From the IMG/VR virus record IMGVR_UViG_3300021962_008382, positions 94,916 to 158,915 of that record: a stretch of DNA of 64,000 nucleotides; one strand, written 5' to 3'. The notes below the pieces were generated by a model. The model made no database searches, was not told the origin of the DNA, and worked only from the letters and a program-made list of their open reading frames with translations. A program made the translations under genes and the position numbers. Source of the DNA: a virus. Below, one piece after another: positions 3,704-51,693 of this stretch. Position 1 is the first letter of the stretch, and each line of letters begins with the position of its first letter.

Positions 3704-3788
3704 AATAGAATTCTTATAAAATATAATATATTGGAAACAAAGAACTTCTAGAAAAGTATAGTTAATCAGACTATCTTTTTACAGCATA

Positions 3789-4523
3789 TTACGGTTCTTT
3801 TCGATTTAACTTGAATATCTTTTTTACTGCATATAATTTTCGATAGAACTGCGGTGTGTCTCCATATGCTTCATTTTTTGTATAGTCAACTTGAGCGTCT
3901 GTACCGGGCCCGTATCCGGCAACAATATCTTTACCGTAGAAAGGTATAATATGCAGTAATGGTTCGCCTGCTTTAATATGAACATTGCATTTTCGTTTTG
4001 GCGAACATATAAAGTTCGTTACTGAGAATTTTTCATAATCAACAGAACCACTCCAAAGATGTAAATCATCTAGCCAGGTAGCATGATATAGCGGGGGTAA
4101 ACATAATGCAGAAATATTTTTCGAAGTACGTATATACCATGGGCACTCAAACTTTATAACCGTTAGTGGAACCCCATCCTCAGGTGTAAAGAACCCATCA
4201 ACAATAGAAGCATCCATGTTTATAGGCGGTCTAAAGCCTCTATCCCCCCTGATTGCTGAACCTATTTCACCAATAACACCTGCTTTATTTGCAAAAATTT
4301 TCATGTCAACCCAAGCTGGTATTATATAACCTAATCGACTATAGTCGATAATGCCAGGGCAATGAGGGAACTTAAACACACCGTATTTTTCTATTTGATT
4401 CGCTTTAGATTTAGGGGTAACATCCTGTGCTCGTTGTACGGGTAACCGATGATATGTCTGTCTCGATACATCAATAAACTCAAATTCAGGTGTTTTTTTC
4501 TTCAAAAAATTAAATAATTTCAC
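3789..4523 (-). CDS. Unknown protein, paralogue of the 4520-5251 product
   Basis: A 244-residue soluble protein of unknown function. It appears homologous to its upstream neighbour: both begin with a basic MxLF/MFNLW-type leader and a Pro-rich start. Both have a central hydrophobic strand (LGYIIPAWVDMKI versus IGFVIPLQADVGI), a tryptophan or aromatic strand before a Leu/Pro-rich turn, and a late strand ending in IIPF or AIPI (HIKAGEPLLHIIPFYGKD versus NAGTPIVVAIPIHRE). The pattern suggests a beta-rich, cupin-like fold, but no metal-binding HxH motif is evident. It overlaps the upstream gene by 4 nt and is last in the run with the sulfotransferase and oxygenase. I do not recognise a characterised family. 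Confidence 0.6.
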   Translation of the reverse strand: MKLFNFLKKKTPEFEFIDVSRQTYHRLPVQRAQDVTPKSKANQIEKYGVFKFPHCPGIIDYSRLGYIIPAWVDMKIFANKAGVIGEIGSAIRGDRGFRPPINMDASIVDGFFTPEDGVPLTVIKFECPWYIRTSKNISALCLPPLYHATWLDDLHLWSGSVDYEKFSVTNFICSPKRKCNVHIKAGEPLLHIIPFYGKDIVAGYGPGTDAQVDYTKNEAYGDTPQFYRKLYAVKKIFKLNRKEP

Positions 4524-5251
4524 TTGCGAGATTCTCTCAGTTCATTTGTATAAACCCCGTGTCTCGTACTTTGAGCTATTCGTATACGCTCTATCTCTCG
4601 GAATTCTTTTTTACTCATACTACGAATAATAGGTTCTTTAGATATTTTATAAATTTCTCGATGAATTGGTATAGCTACCACTATAGGTGTACCAGCATTA
4701 AGAACACCGTCAAAGTTAGCAGTGTGCCAAATTGCTGGGAAGTTGACTTCTTTTACATATGTATCTGTGTCTACTAAACCAGCTAGACATGTGAAGTGAG
4801 CTTGCTCTACGTCATTAATAATGGGCAGAAATAACGTCGACCACCCGGGCGCGGTCTTTACTACCCACCAGTTAAGAAATTTAATTGGTGGTGCCGGGTA
4901 CCCGGGCGCAGCAGAGCCTCCAATCTGATCAACATTATGAAACTCTACTGACTTGACGGTCGGTCCGTTTTTAGCTTCAATAATAGCACAAGTAGAGCTA
5001 GATCGTATACCAACATCAGCTTGTAACGGAATAACAAAACCGATTGACATTGCGTCAAGTAGCGGCATGCATTTTTTTGCAGTTAACCCAGGTCGTCCAA
5101 TACTATCGATACTATCTGGTAACGTAGGTTTTATCCTCTTAAACCAATCTGGAATGCACTTCGCAGCTGGCTTAGGAGGAAGTAATGATCCTTCAAATTC
5201 TGGGTGACACGTAAACTCGATTATAGGGGATTTGCGCCATAAATTAAACAA
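4520..5251 (-). CDS. Unknown protein, possibly DUF6065-like, paralogue of 3789-4523
   Basis: A 243-residue protein of unknown function. Segment CIPDWFKRIKP near residue 33, GLTAKKCMPLLDAMSIGFVIP, and FLNWWVVKTAPGWSTLFLP are reminiscent of a bacterial and phage family I recall as DUF6065. That assignment is from memory and uncertain. It shares strand order with the next gene. Its ATG overlaps the stop of the sulfotransferase gene by 8 nt, so it is translated from the same message. Because the set includes a 2OG oxygenase and a sulfotransferase, a role in building or binding a modified virion or host polymer is possible. That is inference only. Confidence 0.55.
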   Translation of the reverse strand: MFNLWRKSPIIEFTCHPEFEGSLLPPKPAAKCIPDWFKRIKPTLPDSIDSIGRPGLTAKKCMPLLDAMSIGFVIPLQADVGIRSSSTCAIIEAKNGPTVKSVEFHNVDQIGGSAAPGYPAPPIKFLNWWVVKTAPGWSTLFLPIINDVEQAHFTCLAGLVDTDTYVKEVNFPAIWHTANFDGVLNAGTPIVVAIPIHREIYKISKEPIIRSMSKKEFREIERIRIAQSTRHGVYTNELRESRK

Positions 5252-5945
5252 AAGACCTCTCCACGAAGGTTATACCTTTCTTTTCAAAAAAATCATAATC
5301 AGCTTTGTAGAACGCTTTAATTCGAGCCGCCTGTTCTGTAGTTACAGTATCATAATAGTCTGCTGCATCAGTGCTGTTCTGTCTACCTGCAGAATTATAA
5401 GACGGTAAATCTAACAGCGGGACTAATTTGTTATATTCAGCTTCATAATCATGGTAATTAAGTAATACTGTATTATCATTGATATATTCAGTTTGTAGCG
5501 AAAGAAGATCTACAGTTGTAAAAAACGCTCTAGATTCTAGAGCAGTTAGATATTCATCTAGAGTAACATTATTTAGTGTGGGTTTTTCATCGATATTAAA
5601 TTTCTTTCCCCAAATTAAATGAAATAGCGCAGCGCCTCTTGAATATACTTCAAAGCTTAGTTTAGGGTCGGTACGAGCTTTTTCCCATTGCGAAATAGAA
5701 TATCGCCAACCAGATACAAGTCTTTCTATAGGGTCTCTGTAGAATGCGTAGTGGGTTAGTTTACTATAATCTATTTCTGAAAAAAACTCTCCCATAACAC
5801 GCTGTAGCTGATCTTTCTTAATATGTGTCCAGACGCTAGCGTATTTAGATCGACCGTGTTTCGCCTGATATGCTAGCCGAACAGTAGTAGATCCTGTTTT
5901 AGGGATTTCTAAAAATAAACAACCTGTTGATTCGTTAATTATCAT
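5244..5945 (-). CDS. Sulfotransferase family protein
   Basis: A 233-residue PAPS-dependent sulfotransferase-like protein. The 5'-phosphosulfate-binding loop IPKTGSTT is at residues 14-21, with Lys16 in the expected place. The 3'-phosphate-binding motif YRDPIERLVSGW follows at 69-80, with Arg70 and Ser78. This matches the Sulfotransfer_2-type family, whose members add sulfate to carbohydrates. No signal peptide or membrane segment is seen, so it would act in the cytoplasm of the infected cell. The acceptor is unknown. It overlaps the oxygenase stop by 1 nt and the next gene by 8 nt, so these genes are co-translated downstream of the repeat fibre. A virion protein or host glycan could be the target. 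Confidence 0.8.
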   Translation of the reverse strand: MIINESTGCLFLEIPKTGSTTVRLAYQAKHGRSKYASVWTHIKKDQLQRVMGEFFSEIDYSKLTHYAFYRDPIERLVSGWRYSISQWEKARTDPKLSFEVYSRGAALFHLIWGKKFNIDEKPTLNNVTLDEYLTALESRAFFTTVDLLSLQTEYINDNTVLLNYHDYEAEYNKLVPLLDLPSYNSAGRQNSTDAADYYDTVTTEQAARIKAFYKADYDFFEKKGITFVERSFV

Positions 5946-6532
5946 TAAGCTATCCTCTCTCCTAATGCCCAGCTAACCAGTGTAACCCGCTTTCCTGATG
6001 TAACAGGTCTTACACGGTGTGGCATGAACGATGAAAAAAATACACAGTCCCCTCGTTTAGGCTTAAGGACTCTTGGGGCTTCTATATTACCTGTTGTAAC
6101 TATTTCGAGCTCACCACCTTCGTATTCTTCTGGATCGCTTAAAAATAATACACTGGATATCTTACGTTGATACTTTTCCCACCCAAATGCAGCATCCCAA
6201 TGCCAAGAATAGTGTTGATCAGGGTTGTATATAGTATACTGAAAACTATCAAAACCCTCAATATCTAACATAAAATGATCATGATTTACTTTTGCAAGGA
6301 TTATCCCATGAAGATAAAAAAGCCATTCAGAGTTATTATCACGATGTATCCAGGTAATATCGGAATTGCGAATTTTCGGGTCAGCATCAGTAGCTTGATT
6401 GCCAACCCCCCCTTTACGAAACTCTTGCAACTCTGCAAGAAATTTAATTTTATCTAACTCTTCTGCTGTATAGCCGTTTTCCCATACTGCAAAACACTCA
6501 AATCCCCCGCGGTATTTAGGTATCTGATACAT
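5945..6532 (-). CDS. 2-oxoglutarate/Fe(II) oxygenase, prolyl-4-hydroxylase-like
   Basis: A 195-residue P4H-type dioxygenase. The iron ligands are visible as HWD (His111, Asp113) and the distal His172. Arg182 in TSGKRVTLVSW is the 2-oxoglutarate-binding residue. The EEYEGGELEI strand (about 135-144) before the distal His is characteristic of the PKHD/P4H family. Such enzymes hydroxylate proline or other side chains; marine T4-like phages often carry them with no assigned substrate. Here the gene starts 21 nt after the stop of a fibre gene with dozens of PPNPG-type prolines, making that fibre an attractive substrate (inference). GAGGTG precedes the ATG. Confidence 0.85.
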   Translation of the reverse strand: MYQIPKYRGGFECFAVWENGYTAEELDKIKFLAELQEFRKGGVGNQATDADPKIRNSDITWIHRDNNSEWLFYLHGIILAKVNHDHFMLDIEGFDSFQYTIYNPDQHYSWHWDAAFGWEKYQRKISSVLFLSDPEEYEGGELEIVTTGNIEAPRVLKPKRGDCVFFSSFMPHRVRPVTSGKRVTLVSWALGERIA

Positions 6533-6553
6533 TATCTAATTCACCTCATGTTG

Positions 6554-7630
6554 TTAATTACTTTTAATAGTTACATAGCCCCCGGGCGGTACACTGACCG
6601 GGTATGTCTGTGAGTCAGGGACGTTGCTAGGATTTACTTTCGTTGCCGCAACTACAGATGCAGGTGTTCCTCCTACGTTAGAACCGGGGAGGGTAATACC
6701 TAAAGCGGTACTAGGGTTACCTGCTGCCCCGGGGTTACCTGGTGTATATGATGCCGGATAAGGGTTTCCTGGATTACCTGGTGTATATGATGCCGGATAA
6801 GGGTTTCCTGGATTACCTGGTGTATATGATGCCGGGAAAGGGTTCCCAGGATTACCCGGAGTATACGAACCTGGGTTCGGAGGATTAGAATTACCTGGTG
6901 TGTACGAACCTGGGTTCGGAGGATTAGGATTACCCGGTGTATACGAACCTGGGTTCGGGGGATTAGGATTACCCGGTGTATACGAACCTGGGTTCGGGGG
7001 ATTAGGATTACCCGGTGTATACGAACCTGGGTTCGGGGGATTAGCTGTAGGGTTATTCGGGTCTGTCGGGTTGCCTGGGTAGTACTGAGGTGGTATATAA
7101 AAACCACCGTAGTTATATCCAGGGTAATATGTCCCAGGGTTCGGGGGATTAGCATTACCTGGAGTAGAAGGTGTCGGATTACCTGGTGTGTATGAGCCCG
7201 CATTAGGTGGTGTTGGATTACCCGGTGTAAATGCGCCTGCATTAGGTGGTGTTGGATTACCCGGTGTAAATGCACCTGCATTAGGTGGTGTTGGATTACC
7301 CGGTGTAAATGCACCTGCATTAGGTGGTGTTGGATTACCCGGTGTAAAATTACCCGGATTAGGGGGATTAGTACCGCCTGGTGTAAAATTACCCGGGTTC
7401 GGGGGATTAGTACCGCCTGGTGTAAAATTACCCGGATTAGGGGGATTAGTACCGCCTGGTGTAAAATTACCCGGGTTTGCAGCGTTTCCCGTACCTCCAC
7501 GACCTTCTACTGTAATATCATAACGACCGTATGGTATTACATAATTACCTGGAGAGTTAAACGTTGTGGTACCCGTACCAGACGCACGCCACGTTTTTTC
7601 TAATCCAAATATAGGTGTTTTTCTAGTCAC
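6554..7630 (-). CDS. Pro/Gly/Asn-rich repeat fibre protein
   Basis: A 358-residue extended protein. Residues about 18-45 (TTTFNSPGNYVIPYGRYDITVEGRGG) form a short beta domain seen at the N-terminus of marine phage glycine-rich fibres. Residues about 52-300 are a tandem array of 13-residue units in four flavours (NPPNPGNFTPGGT, NPTPPNAGAFTPG, NPNPPNPGSYTPG, NPGNPYPASYTPG). The C-terminal about 50 residues end VPPGGYVTIKS, a likely cap strand. The chain is collagen-like in composition but has no strict Gly-X-Y register. It probably forms a flexible spike or glycine-rich tip that contacts the host. A prolyl-hydroxylase-like gene follows directly. Confidence 0.75.
   Translation of the reverse strand: MTRKTPIFGLEKTWRASGTGTTTFNSPGNYVIPYGRYDITVEGRGGTGNAANPGNFTPGGTNPPNPGNFTPGGTNPPNPGNFTPGGTNPPNPGNFTPGNPTPPNAGAFTPGNPTPPNAGAFTPGNPTPPNAGAFTPGNPTPPNAGSYTPGNPTPSTPGNANPPNPGTYYPGYNYGGFYIPPQYYPGNPTDPNNPTANPPNPGSYTPGNPNPPNPGSYTPGNPNPPNPGSYTPGNPNPPNPGSYTPGNSNPPNPGSYTPGNPGNPFPASYTPGNPGNPYPASYTPGNPGNPYPASYTPGNPGAAGNPSTALGITLPGSNVGGTPASVVAATKVNPSNVPDSQTYPVSVPPGGYVTIKSN
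6720..7480 (-). repeat. 39-bp tandem minisatellite in the fibre gene
   Basis: In-frame 39-bp units encoding 13-residue Pro/Gly repeats, grouped in four blocks of three to four near-identical copies: about 6740-6860, 6860-7045, 7190-7350 and 7350-7480. A non-repeat Tyr-rich linker sits at about 7045-7140. Copies within a block are nearly identical in DNA while blocks differ, which suggests recent block-wise duplication and easy copy-number change. Confidence 0.9.
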
Positions 7631-7642
7631 TAGAAGACCTCG

Positions 7643-8197
7643 TTACTTCGCGTCTTTCATTGCCAGAGAAACGTATACAGTAGTACCACCATCTACGGTA
7701 AATAGAGACCAAATATCTACGGCGTTAGCTGTAGTTGTTGCAGGAGGAACAACACCACCAGGGTAGTCAGATGAAGATGGCCAGGAGTATGTTCTACCTC
7801 CAGTTCCATCTTGTACAACTATAGCTGTAACAGCTGCAATTGTATTTGCGCCTGGTACACTTGTAAATGCAAAAGTAGTATTACCTGTTAGCCGCGTACG
7901 TACAACACCTTTTGTAAAATCGATATTAACATTACCGGATACGTTACCGAGATCGACATAATCACTGTTTGCGCCTGCGATGGTTATGTTACCCGAACCA
8001 TTGGTAACTACAATACCTGAACCAGCAGTAAGAGTAGCCTTGTTGAGAGTATTGCCAGTCGAGTTGCCGATTAAAAGCTGACCGTCAGTATACGTTGTCT
8101 GACCGGTGCCGCCTTGCGTAACTGTAAGTGCTGAGCCTAGGTTAGATAGATTTCTACTATTATCAATGACGGTTGTACCGCCAACTTGAATTGCCAT
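7643..8197 (-). CDS. Tail fibre protein (GGTG-type)
   Basis: A 184-residue fibre protein. It starts MAIQVGGTTVIDNSRNLSN, has the fibre motif VTQGGTGQTTYTDGQLLIGN at about 27-46, then NKATLTAGSGIVVTNGSGNITI, a unit repeated in many phage fibres. The C-terminal half (about 80-184) is a compact beta domain (TAIVVQDGTGGRTYSWPSS, WSLFTVDGGTTVYVSLAMK) found at fibre tips of marine phages. It lies between the S74-domain gene and the Pro/Gly repeat fibre, in the same direction. The ATG at 8197 is preceded by AAAGGAGAG. It is likely a distal tail-fibre component. Confidence 0.7.
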   Translation of the reverse strand: MAIQVGGTTVIDNSRNLSNLGSALTVTQGGTGQTTYTDGQLLIGNSTGNTLNKATLTAGSGIVVTNGSGNITIAGANSDYVDLGNVSGNVNIDFTKGVVRTRLTGNTTFAFTSVPGANTIAAVTAIVVQDGTGGRTYSWPSSSDYPGGVVPPATTTANAVDIWSLFTVDGGTTVYVSLAMKDAK

Positions 8198-8231
8198 CTT
8201 CGCTCTCCTTTAGAACTCGGCATTTTTTTTT

Positions 8232-8858
8232 TTATTTTTTATCTTTTAACATTTGAACTTCCTGTTTCAAATGTTTAATACTCTCAATCAAAATAGCGAT
8301 AAAGTTAAGATAGTTTATACCCTTTGTACCATCAGGCCTGTTTTTTACGACCTCAGGCAGTATTTTTTCAACTTCTTGAGCAGATAAACCTAAAGATTTT
8401 TCCCCCGAGTCTTTCCAGGTAAAGCTATAACCTGTAATTTGAGATAAGATATCAAGGGGGTTAGTTATCGGCTCAATATTGTCTTTGAGAGTCACATCGG
8501 AGGAAGAATTATAATCAGTAGAGGTTAAAAGACCCGTAGAAGGATTGAAAGTTAATTTAGTGCTGGTAATTTTTACCGCTGCATTCCCTGAGGAGGCTGC
8601 TACGAAGGTAGGAAATACCGTTGAGTTAGATGATGTATCATCTACTACTTTAATGTCTAAAGTTACATTTGAAACAGTGCCATTTGAAACAGAACTAGAT
8701 GTAGCAAGTTCATTAATAGCAGCTACTAGATTAGCTTTAGCGGTAGTTGAAAGATTACTAACAACACCTAGTTCGTTATTAATATTTGAAAAGTTATTAT
8801 CCACTTCTGTATTAGTAAGTGGAGAACCTTTTACGTTTCGTAAGACTAGAGTAGCCAT
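8232..8858 (-). CDS. Tail fibre with C-terminal S74 intramolecular chaperone
   Basis: A 208-residue protein. Residues about 115-208 match the peptidase S74 chaperone of endosialidase-type fibres: SDVTLKDNIEPI with Ser120-Asp121 and Lys125, GYSFTWKDSG, LGLSAQEVEKILPEVV, then a C-terminal helix (FIAILIESIKHLKQEVQMLKDKK). In this family the domain trimerises the fibre and cuts itself off before the Ser of the Ser-Asp pair. The N-terminal 110 residues resemble a short fibre module (GSPLTNTEVDNNFSNINNEL). A TATAAATA late promoter lies 26 nt upstream. A run of ten A on the coding strand follows the stop. Confidence 0.85.
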   Translation of the reverse strand: MATLVLRNVKGSPLTNTEVDNNFSNINNELGVVSNLSTTAKANLVAAINELATSSSVSNGTVSNVTLDIKVVDDTSSNSTVFPTFVAASSGNAAVKITSTKLTFNPSTGLLTSTDYNSSSDVTLKDNIEPITNPLDILSQITGYSFTWKDSGEKSLGLSAQEVEKILPEVVKNRPDGTKGINYLNFIAILIESIKHLKQEVQMLKDKK

Positions 8859-50793: not shown

Positions 50794-51693
50794 TTATTCC
50801 CCAGCAGAAACCGTGCTGCTGGAGTGAATATATCTATAGTGATTTCCGGAGTCTTTATCTTTTACGATATACTCCACGTAGATATCACCGCTTTCGGTAT
50901 TATATTTAGGCTCTGAAACTTCGTGACCTTCGTTTACAAGGGTGTCGATCTTCTGATCAACAGCGTCTTCTAAAGCAGCTAATTCAATAAAAGCATTGTT
51001 CTGAACATTATAAGACTCATTAGCAATGTTAATTGCTTCTTCCTCTCCTACTAACCGCTTTGCAGCAAGAAGATGTTCGGAAAAGGAGTAACGATCTTTT
51101 GGTTCGAAGTTATTCACTACTAATACGCTTTCGCTATATTGTACTGATTCTTCCATATCGTCTTTTTTAGTAGAAGCCATTCCTTTAGTGGCCCCTGACT
51201 GAGACATGTGTTTCTTAGCTGCAGATTTAGCTAGTCTTTCTTGTTCTTTATTTTTCTTGGCGATCTTTTCTGCGGCAGCTTTAATCATAGGAAGACGCTT
51301 AGCTTTCAACTCTGCCGAAGCTGCTTCTTCGATATCATCTTTCTTTGTAGATGCCATTCCTTTTGTAGCACCTGATTGAGACATATGCTTCTTAGCTGCA
51401 GACTTAGCTAGTCTTTCTTGCTCTTTATTTTTCTTAGCAATCTTTTCAGCAGCTGCTTTAATCATAGGTAGACGCTTAGCTTTGAGCTCCGCTGACACGG
51501 CTTCTACCATATCAACTTCTTCTTTCATCTTAGCTTTTTTACCGGTACGAAGCATCTCAAAATCTTTTGATGTGAGTTCATCCTTTTCTGGTTCGTGAAC
51601 ATCTAGCTTCTGCTGATTAGGGTGTTTAATCTTACCTTCTAAAACTTCGCGAGCTGCATTTTGTAGTGATTTGGAAATTGATTTCATATCCAT
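50794..51693 (-). CDS. Head-internal/scaffold-like protein with 59-residue tandem repeat
   Basis: A 299-residue, very charged protein. Residues 66-121 and 125-180 are nearly identical 59-residue-period units (SAELKAKRLPMIKAAAEKIA, KKNKEQERLAKSAAKKHMSQ, SGATKGMASTKKDD). The N-terminal 60 residues are helical (SKSLQNAAREVLEGKIKHP) and the C-terminal 120 form a mixed domain (DRYSFSEHLLAAKRLVGEEE, GDIYVEYIVKDKDSGNHYRY). Ala/Lys/Glu-rich, helical, repetitive composition suggests a prohead core or packaged internal protein (inferred). It lies in the late block with other basic proteins. Confidence 0.55.
   Translation of the reverse strand: MDMKSISKSLQNAAREVLEGKIKHPNQQKLDVHEPEKDELTSKDFEMLRTGKKAKMKEEVDMVEAVSAELKAKRLPMIKAAAEKIAKKNKEQERLAKSAAKKHMSQSGATKGMASTKKDDIEEAASAELKAKRLPMIKAAAEKIAKKNKEQERLAKSAAKKHMSQSGATKGMASTKKDDMEESVQYSESVLVVNNFEPKDRYSFSEHLLAAKRLVGEEEAINIANESYNVQNNAFIELAALEDAVDQKIDTLVNEGHEVSEPKYNTESGDIYVEYIVKDKDSGNHYRYIHSSSTVSAGE
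51157..51510 (-). repeat. 177-bp tandem duplication
   Basis: Two in-frame 177-bp copies inside the 50794-51693 gene. The encoded 59-residue units are nearly identical, whereas the DNA differs at many third codon positions (compare GTGGCCCCTGACTGAGAC with GTAGCACCTGATTGAGAC). This implies an older duplication held by selection on the protein. Confidence 0.85.

Follow-up and report, generated by a model that had tools for sequence, protein, structure and literature searches.

A repeat-fibre gene cassette of aquatic phages that pairs a candidate fibre-modifying oxygenase with optional sulfate or sugar transferases

Why a phage would encode a 2-oxoglutarate (2OG)-Fe(II) oxygenase, a sulfotransferase, and two mutually related proteins directly behind a repeat-rich fibre is the question raised by a 64-kb stretch of DNA (the whole stretch analysed, hereafter the window) from the IMG/VR virus record IMGVR_UViG_3300021962_008382, the full record of which is 158,915 bases long. 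Five genes on the minus strand at 3789-7630 are arranged in the order fibre, oxygenase, sulfotransferase, parA (paralogue A), and parB (paralogue B). A 21-nucleotide (nt) gap separates the fibre and oxygenase genes, and the oxygenase and sulfotransferase, sulfotransferase and parA, and parA and parB genes overlap by 1, 8, and 4 nt, respectively, which agrees to the base with a first-pass annotation of the window. The cluster is confirmed far beyond chance, as dozens of distinct phage contigs share its gene order; because these independent contigs agree, an artefact of reading frame or assembly was rejected. The annotation had further proposed that the phage enzymes hydroxylate prolines of the phage's own fibre, an idea that largely holds and an interpretation that, overall, is partly supported by the results presented here. 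The cassette is likely to encode a tail-fibre adhesin together with enzymes dedicated to its modification; the fibre would be hydroxylated by its own oxygenase and then capped with sulfate or sugar.

A gene cassette linked to a repeat fibre

The distribution of the cassette was surveyed with parA and the oxygenase as seeds and then with a parA alignment, which yielded 113 viral contigs with a parA homologue (L-numbers below are labels of the surveyed contigs or their clusters). These contigs formed 36 clusters at 90% parA identity, two of them haloarchaeal (HF1 and HRTV-2). The oxygenase accompanied parA in all 34 of the other clusters. It was either immediately before parA or separated from it by a single gene, which was the sulfotransferase or, in a small clade, a different one. 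In 29 of the 31 main-clade clusters parB directly followed parA. A repeat fibre was present in every one of the 30 main-clade clusters that could be tested (L005 was excluded because it contained too little DNA): 26 were found upstream by profile, three upstream by eye (L164, L166, and L174), and one downstream (L177). The reverse search, starting from the N-terminal domain of the fibre, gave the same picture. The oxygenase and parA followed in 27 of 27 distinct fibres with enough downstream DNA; four other distinct fibres bordered on the end of their contig, and for the fibre of L233 the 1,150 bases that follow held a cassette sulfotransferase. The profile for this search was built from cassette-linked fibres, and remote fibre relatives were therefore not sampled. 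Thus, in neither direction were main-clade enzymes found without the fibre or the fibre without the enzymes, consistent with the first-pass proposal that the two belong together.

The flanking genes vary between clusters while the cassette keeps together, which indicates that it behaves as a unit; chance neighbourhood was considered and rejected. A survey for co-occurrence of the repeat fibre with both enzymes had been suggested in the first-pass annotation; the oxygenase co-occurs regularly, but the sulfotransferase was present in only 5 of the 34 clusters. The core of the module is fibre-oxygenase-parA-parB, with the sulfotransferase as one of several putative optional caps. In a small parA clade comprising three of the 34 clusters (L017, L019, and L022), a Gly-rich tail fibre replaces the repeat fibre. 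The order in this second clade (L016-L026) is Gly-rich tail fibre, a small gene of 124 amino acids (aa), oxygenase, a phrog_2954 gene, parA, and further unidentified genes; the label "ferrochelatase" on the phrog_2954 gene looks doubtful.

No match to the window fibre or the window sulfotransferase was detected in isolated phages with tblastn, so that metagenomic contigs are the only known source of a module close to the window form.

A fibre with two arms of equal length

Fibres of this family have common ends (N-terminal TxTFNAPGxYxxPYGK...GRGxSGN and C-terminal LGVTFPGG...VPPGGYVTIK), which enclose as many as 580 residues; most of these belong to tandem repeats, the period of which varies from phage to phage. 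Tandem Repeats Finder located two arrays of 39-nt (13-aa) units in the window fibre, one at 6735-7044 and the other at 7154-7474; the best subarrays have 93-95% matches. The repeats that the first-pass annotation had described as about 18-20 Pro/Gly units are real, and its count was close: ~17-18 Pro/Gly/Asn units are spread over two arms, and the composition of the fibre is 16% Gly, 25% Pro, and 16% Asn. Both ends were modelled confidently by AlphaFold as short beta strands (predicted local distance difference test [pLDDT] score, ~80 to 95), and the repeat arms were left without confident structure. A Foldseek search with this model (mean pLDDT, 54) returned nothing significant.

The least repetitive stretch of the fibres is aromatic-rich, often contains a Cys pair, and has a median position at 0.48 of the length. 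When this tip was located without confining the search to the middle of the fibre, the lengths of the two arms were closely correlated (r = 0.93; median asymmetry, 0.06) in 37 distinct fibres of 251 to 697 aa. Randomly placed tips gave a mean r of -0.39, with a maximum of 0.06 in 5000 trials, and an asymmetry of 0.43. The correlation was still 0.88 over 19 fibres once those with similar N termini were dropped. Because the arms are equal in fibres of very different length, we infer that they lie side by side, the chain folding back on itself as a hairpin whose far end is the tip. This two-arm-and-tip design had been missed in the first-pass annotation, as had a glycosyltransferase encoded by relatives of the window phage. 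In the open-access literature searched, no description of the module was found, and we did not find one of the symmetric two-arm fibre architecture.

Arm length also differs between close relatives. The near-identical contig L003 encodes, at 5661-6698, the fibre of window 6554-7630 minus one 13-aa unit, which is repeat-number variation, and fibre lengths in the L125-type group extend from 394 to 697 aa. The N-terminal profile of the fibre family also matched (27-33 bits) Gly-rich adhesins with 28-34% Gly that adjoin other phrog_61-family oxygenases (L033, L035, L036, and L181).

Modifying enzymes, their partners, and the candidate target

The oxygenase matches the double-stranded beta-helix profile PF13640 (E 1e-19; 71.5 bits versus a curated cutoff of 27). 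The iron triad (H111, D113, and H172) and the 2OG-binding Arg (R182) were invariant in 18 relatives, in agreement with the complete HxD...H...R site noted previously. The closest curated models are PKHD/YbiX-type hydroxylases; the score against PKHD-type PRK05467 (NCBIfam) was 64 bits, below the equivalog cutoff of 143, and the enzyme is therefore a PKHD relative rather than an equivalog. The nearest solved structures are the PKHD protein PiuC, bacterial and algal prolyl 4-hydroxylases, and EGLN1. Among 31 oxygenase clusters without parA, 17 had a Gly/Pro-rich open reading frame (ORF) within 5 kb; the whole 64-kb window has one such ORF.

Some contigs contain further genes of these types. In L181 (IMGVR_UViG_3300043442_000834, 3719-8619), a second member of the oxygenase family is found 2-4 kb downstream of parA of the repeat-fibre module, together with a gene resembling prolyl 4-hydroxylase and a Gly-rich adhesin, so that the contig has two fibres, each accompanied by an oxygenase. 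In L009 a second 2OG oxygenase is located after parB. Collagen-like (GPP)n tail proteins lie beside an oxygenase in L074 (5185-7376), one of them with a segment resembling a Hint/intein domain (CACFLDGTKVLMLNGFEKNIEDIKVGDRI).

The assignment of the next gene to the 3'-phosphoadenosine 5'-phosphosulfate (PAPS)-dependent sulfotransferases was sound. It matches PF03567 (E 5e-10; 40.4 bits versus a cutoff of 22), and the 5'-PSB loop (P15-K16-x-G18) and 3'-PB motif (R70.P72.....S78) were invariant in four relatives; a PDB sequence search with the alignment gave chance-level matches only. It is not, as had been assumed, a set part of the cluster. The clusters with this gene (window/L003, L007, L015, L031, and L119) have it between the oxygenase and parA in two cases and before the oxygenase in three, and the enzymes of three aligned relatives are 26-30% identical to that of the window. 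Its rarity, shifting position, and low identity suggest an accessory gene that was probably acquired more than once. In L007 (5909-6661), L031 (6550-7290), and L029 (381-977), the fibre gene is separated from the sulfotransferase or oxygenase gene by genes of ~200-250 aa, none above a Pfam cutoff.

A glycosyltransferase gene directly follows parB in 18 of the 31 main-clade clusters, and L007 and L015 have both transferases. The three glycosyltransferases checked with Pfam all belong to PF11397 (E 2e-23 to 4e-33), the family of the Skp1 GlcNAc-transferase, which adds a sugar to hydroxyproline. In Dictyostelium, PhyA hydroxylates a proline of Skp1 and Gnt1 then glycosylates the hydroxyproline (PMC3515798).

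parA and parB, previously listed as two related unknowns, are indeed related, as both match phrog_7084 (2e-45 and 5e-18), a family without known function, and are ~20% identical; in fact, they are core members of the module. parA is predicted to have a dUTPase-like (beta-clip) fold (model pLDDT, 85). Its ten best PDB matches were all dUTPases (best E, 2e-4; target template modeling [TM] score, 0.51-0.64), including T5 dUTPase (E 2e-4; target TM, 0.58) and Aquifex dUTPase (target TM, 0.64). parB, as a paralogue, would have the same fold. A GLVDTDTY segment in parA aligns with dUTPase motif 3 in a profile comparison (P 0.009, weak alone). No PF00692 match to parA was found in Pfam searches, and parA and parB had no match in a PDB sequence search. 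The possibility that they are active dUTPases was rejected because catalytic motifs are missing. The parA alignment gave 92 pattern matches in 84,980 genomes of bacteria and archaea, none of which was a relative. As the pair is almost as constant as the oxygenase, its most economical role is that of a modification or folding partner, which might involve substrate presentation, a scaffold, or nucleotide or nucleotide-sugar binding.

In the mechanism that we propose, the repeat protein would be a receptor-binding fibre tip with its N- and C-terminal ends forming one base domain, and the chain would go out along arm 1, turn at the variable aromatic tip, and return along arm 2. During assembly in the host cytoplasm, the oxygenase may hydroxylate many arm residues, in our judgement proline first and asparagine second. 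The new hydroxyls, or Tyr, Ser, or Thr residues of the repeats, would then be capped by the optional transferase, with sulfate in the window phage and a PF11397-type sugar in many relatives. The phrog_7084 pair would be near-obligate partners that serve as a chaperone or scaffold or bind a nucleotide sugar or the substrate, and the likely benefit would be stiff, protease-resistant arms and a variable host-binding surface.

Several points weigh against this reading. Genomic linkage is no proof of an enzyme-substrate pair, and modification of the fibre is a prediction. Proline is enriched in most fibres, with a median of 14% of the arms, but the fibres of L007 and L015, with 8-aa repeats (ASYNAQNV), contain only 4-6% Pro and ~22% Asn and are nevertheless encoded with the oxygenase, parA, parB, the sulfotransferase, and the glycosyltransferase. 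These fibres speak against proline as the only target. Of the first-pass claim, the linkage of enzyme and fibre is supported, but proline is not constant in the fibre and is a candidate target. Because aromatic, Asn, and Pro positions were equally constrained, in-register conservation did not separate the target residue. No PF11397 match was found in the window phage record, in a search in which control genomes were silent too and absence is thus not proven; the window phage is for this reason not classed under a PhyA/Gnt1-type pathway. Furthermore, the parA homologues in haloarchaeal Hafunaviridae (L001, 5896-6768, and L002, 5899-6789; HRTV-2 and HF1) have neither oxygenase nor repeat fibre and are near thymidylate synthase or ribonucleotide reductase genes, which makes a nucleotide role possible there. 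They are also a few kilobases from tail fibre/adhesin genes on the opposite strand, and these viruses carry Gly-rich host-range adhesins (PMC8651126).

The Pro-poor fibres raise the alternative that asparagine, or an aromatic/Asn motif, is hydroxylated rather than proline, by asparaginyl-hydroxylase-like action on [Y/F]-N repeats. The Asn share of the arms is never below 7% and reaches 26%, and [YFW]N is 2.6-fold overrepresented in them (587 observed versus 230 expected). However, [YF]N is infrequent in the window fibre, where [YF]-T-P-G recurs in its place, the L007 and L015 fibres still hold some N-P-A-S-Y units, the nearest structures are prolyl hydroxylases and PKHD enzymes, and the PF11397 precedent is hydroxyproline. 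We regard asparagine as an unlikely target in place of proline. There is a somewhat better, still modest, chance that the module is fibre-linked with parA and parB catalysing a further modification, such as nucleotide-sugar or PAPS handling, and the oxygenase merely preparatory. The constancy of both paralogues is in keeping with this, as is the resemblance of GLVDTDTY to the uridine-binding motif 3 of dUTPases, and PF11397 enzymes use UDP-sugars; the dUTPase profile match is weak, however, and phrog_7084 has no known biochemistry.

It is distinctly doubtful that the host surface or host proteins are the substrates, with the fibre a neighbour of the enzymes only as a co-recombining host-range gene. 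Both transferases are optional and the sulfotransferase moves, as host-range cargo might, but the oxygenase-parA-parB order is constant and, whether searched from parA or from the fibre, always goes with one unusual fibre family, and the second oxygenase of L181 is also near a Gly-rich fibre. It is highly improbable that the oxygenase has nucleic acid as its substrate, in AlkB-like repair, or joins the dUTPase-fold pair in nucleotide metabolism. A repair function of cyanophage 2OG oxygenases has been discussed in an older review because UvsX and UvsY are neighbours (PMC2984593), and the predicted fold of parA and its position near thymidylate synthase in HRTV-2 are compatible with such a role. 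Yet the cassette contains no nucleotide or repair gene, its neighbour is always a fibre, and parA has neither a PF00692 match nor recognisable dUTPase motifs 2, 4, and 5.

Other features of the locus and comparison with known systems

The features of the locus are listed in Table 1. The adhesin may be carried on a shaft formed by the upstream orf7643. A tail protein with a Peptidase_S74 domain (endosialidase-type intramolecular chaperone) is encoded immediately before the module, at 8232-8858 on its upstream side; its C terminus differs in L003 (a poly-Lys run), possibly because of an assembly difference. Elsewhere in the window, a 177-nt tandem repeat (51143-51518; 2.1 copies; 84% matches) is located inside the ORF at 50794-51693. 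A promoter and terminator scan gave nothing worth reporting over shuffles.

Table 1. Genes and fibre domains of the cassette region
Feature	Position	Strand	Details
Repeat fibre/adhesin gene	6554-7630	minus	358 aa; GTG start; N-terminal base, arm 1, central tip, arm 2, C-terminal base
Fibre N-terminal base domain	7475-7630	minus	~residues 1-52; TxTFNxPGxYxxPYGR...GRGGTGN; common to Gly-rich phage adhesins; high pLDDT
Fibre repeat arm 1	7139-7474	minus	13-aa units GGTNPPNPGNFTP / GNPTPPNAGAFTP
Fibre central tip	7064-7138	minus	Nonrepetitive, aromatic-rich; PGTYYPGYNYGGFYIPPQYYPGNPT; proposed receptor-binding loop (putative receptor role)
Fibre repeat arm 2	6743-7063	minus	13-aa units GNPNPPNPGSYTP / GNPGNPYPASYTP
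Fibre C-terminal base domain	6557-6742	minus	LGITLPGS...VSVPPGGYVTIK
2OG-Fe(II) oxygenase, PKHD/PiuC type	5945-6532	minus	195 aa; phrog_61; H111, D113, H172, R182
PAPS sulfotransferase	5244-5945	minus	233 aa; PF03567; optional module member
parA (paralogue A)	4520-5251	minus	243 aa; phrog_7084; core module protein; predicted dUTPase-like fold
parB (paralogue B)	3789-4523	minus	244 aa; second core phrog_7084 paralogue
Upstream tail-fibre protein orf7643	7643-8197	minus	phrog_31660/7760; homologues precede the fibre in many relatives

The adhesin gp38 of Salmonella phage S16 is described as a polyglycine type II sandwich in which Gly-rich loops project from a beta base (Dunne et al. 2018, as described in PMC6851490). 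The window fibre is likewise presumed to be a tail-fibre-tip adhesin, with loops rich in a small residue set off a beta base and variable tips, and the Gly-rich fibres beside the same oxygenases have the N-terminal domain of its family. It differs in having two long Asn/Pro/Gly/aromatic repeat arms rather than ten short Gly-rich helices, and an attachment helix bundle was not recognised. With 16% Gly and arms unresolved in the model, it lacks the Gly-rich motifs that form the polyglycine II lattice of gp38-type adhesins, and it is not classed as one. It may work like one; orf7643 lies upstream, the tip is variable, the arms are symmetric, and the N-terminal profile matches Gly-rich adhesins. 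We know of no report of gp38 hydroxylation.

Virus-encoded hydroxylation has a precedent in the prolyl 4-hydroxylase of PBCV-1, with 4-hydroxyproline reported from viral proteins (Eriksson et al. 1999, as cited in PMC9301287). Both enzymes are virus-encoded 2OG enzymes, and prolyl 4-hydroxylases are among the structural matches of the window oxygenase, which is nevertheless nearer to the PKHD/PiuC branch. PBCV-1 is a eukaryotic algal virus, and no enzyme-substrate-transferase operon is described there. The idea that viral prolyl hydroxylases may act on viral fibres has been raised through the PBCV-1 work, cited in an account that calls the viral role cryptic (PMC9301287).

The Dictyostelium PhyA/Gnt1 pathway pairs a 2OG oxygenase with a PF11397-family transferase, and both gene types are found in relatives of the cassette. 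In that pathway, however, one proline of a cytosolic signalling protein is modified rather than a multirepeat virion fibre, and the window phage has a sulfotransferase in place of the PF11397 transferase. parA resembles the dUTPase superfamily (T5 dUTPase; PF00692) in its predicted fold and motif-3-like segment, but motifs 2, 4, and 5 are not recognisable, and it is ~100 residues longer and fibre-linked.

As a wider proposal, which we offer tentatively, many aquatic phages may employ the oxygenase and the dUTPase-fold pair to introduce multiple hydroxyls into each chain of a two-armed repeat adhesin before sugar or sulfate caps are added. This would be a phage counterpart of the hydroxylation-glycosylation of collagen and Skp1, with reach determined by the arms and host binding by tips and transferases that can be exchanged. 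In dozens of phage contigs, the genes for a candidate substrate, the enzyme that would modify it, and exchangeable caps are neighbours, so that mass spectrometry could test the substrate question directly. If the proposal is true, phage receptor-binding proteins bear a purpose-made chemical decoration that matters for host range and fibre stability, and a job has been found for an enzyme class common as "auxiliary" genes in aquatic phages. The first-pass annotation had pointed out that these oxygenases have no known substrate and that the neighbour here offers one; surveys indeed give none (PMC12774648 and PMC9301287). The EGLN3-like 2OG oxygenases reported from marine phages belong to the same family, phrog_61, and are widespread in aquatic phages, but in contrast to that report, which gives no substrate (PMC12774648), the window oxygenase has a constant neighbour, the repeat fibre, as its candidate substrate.

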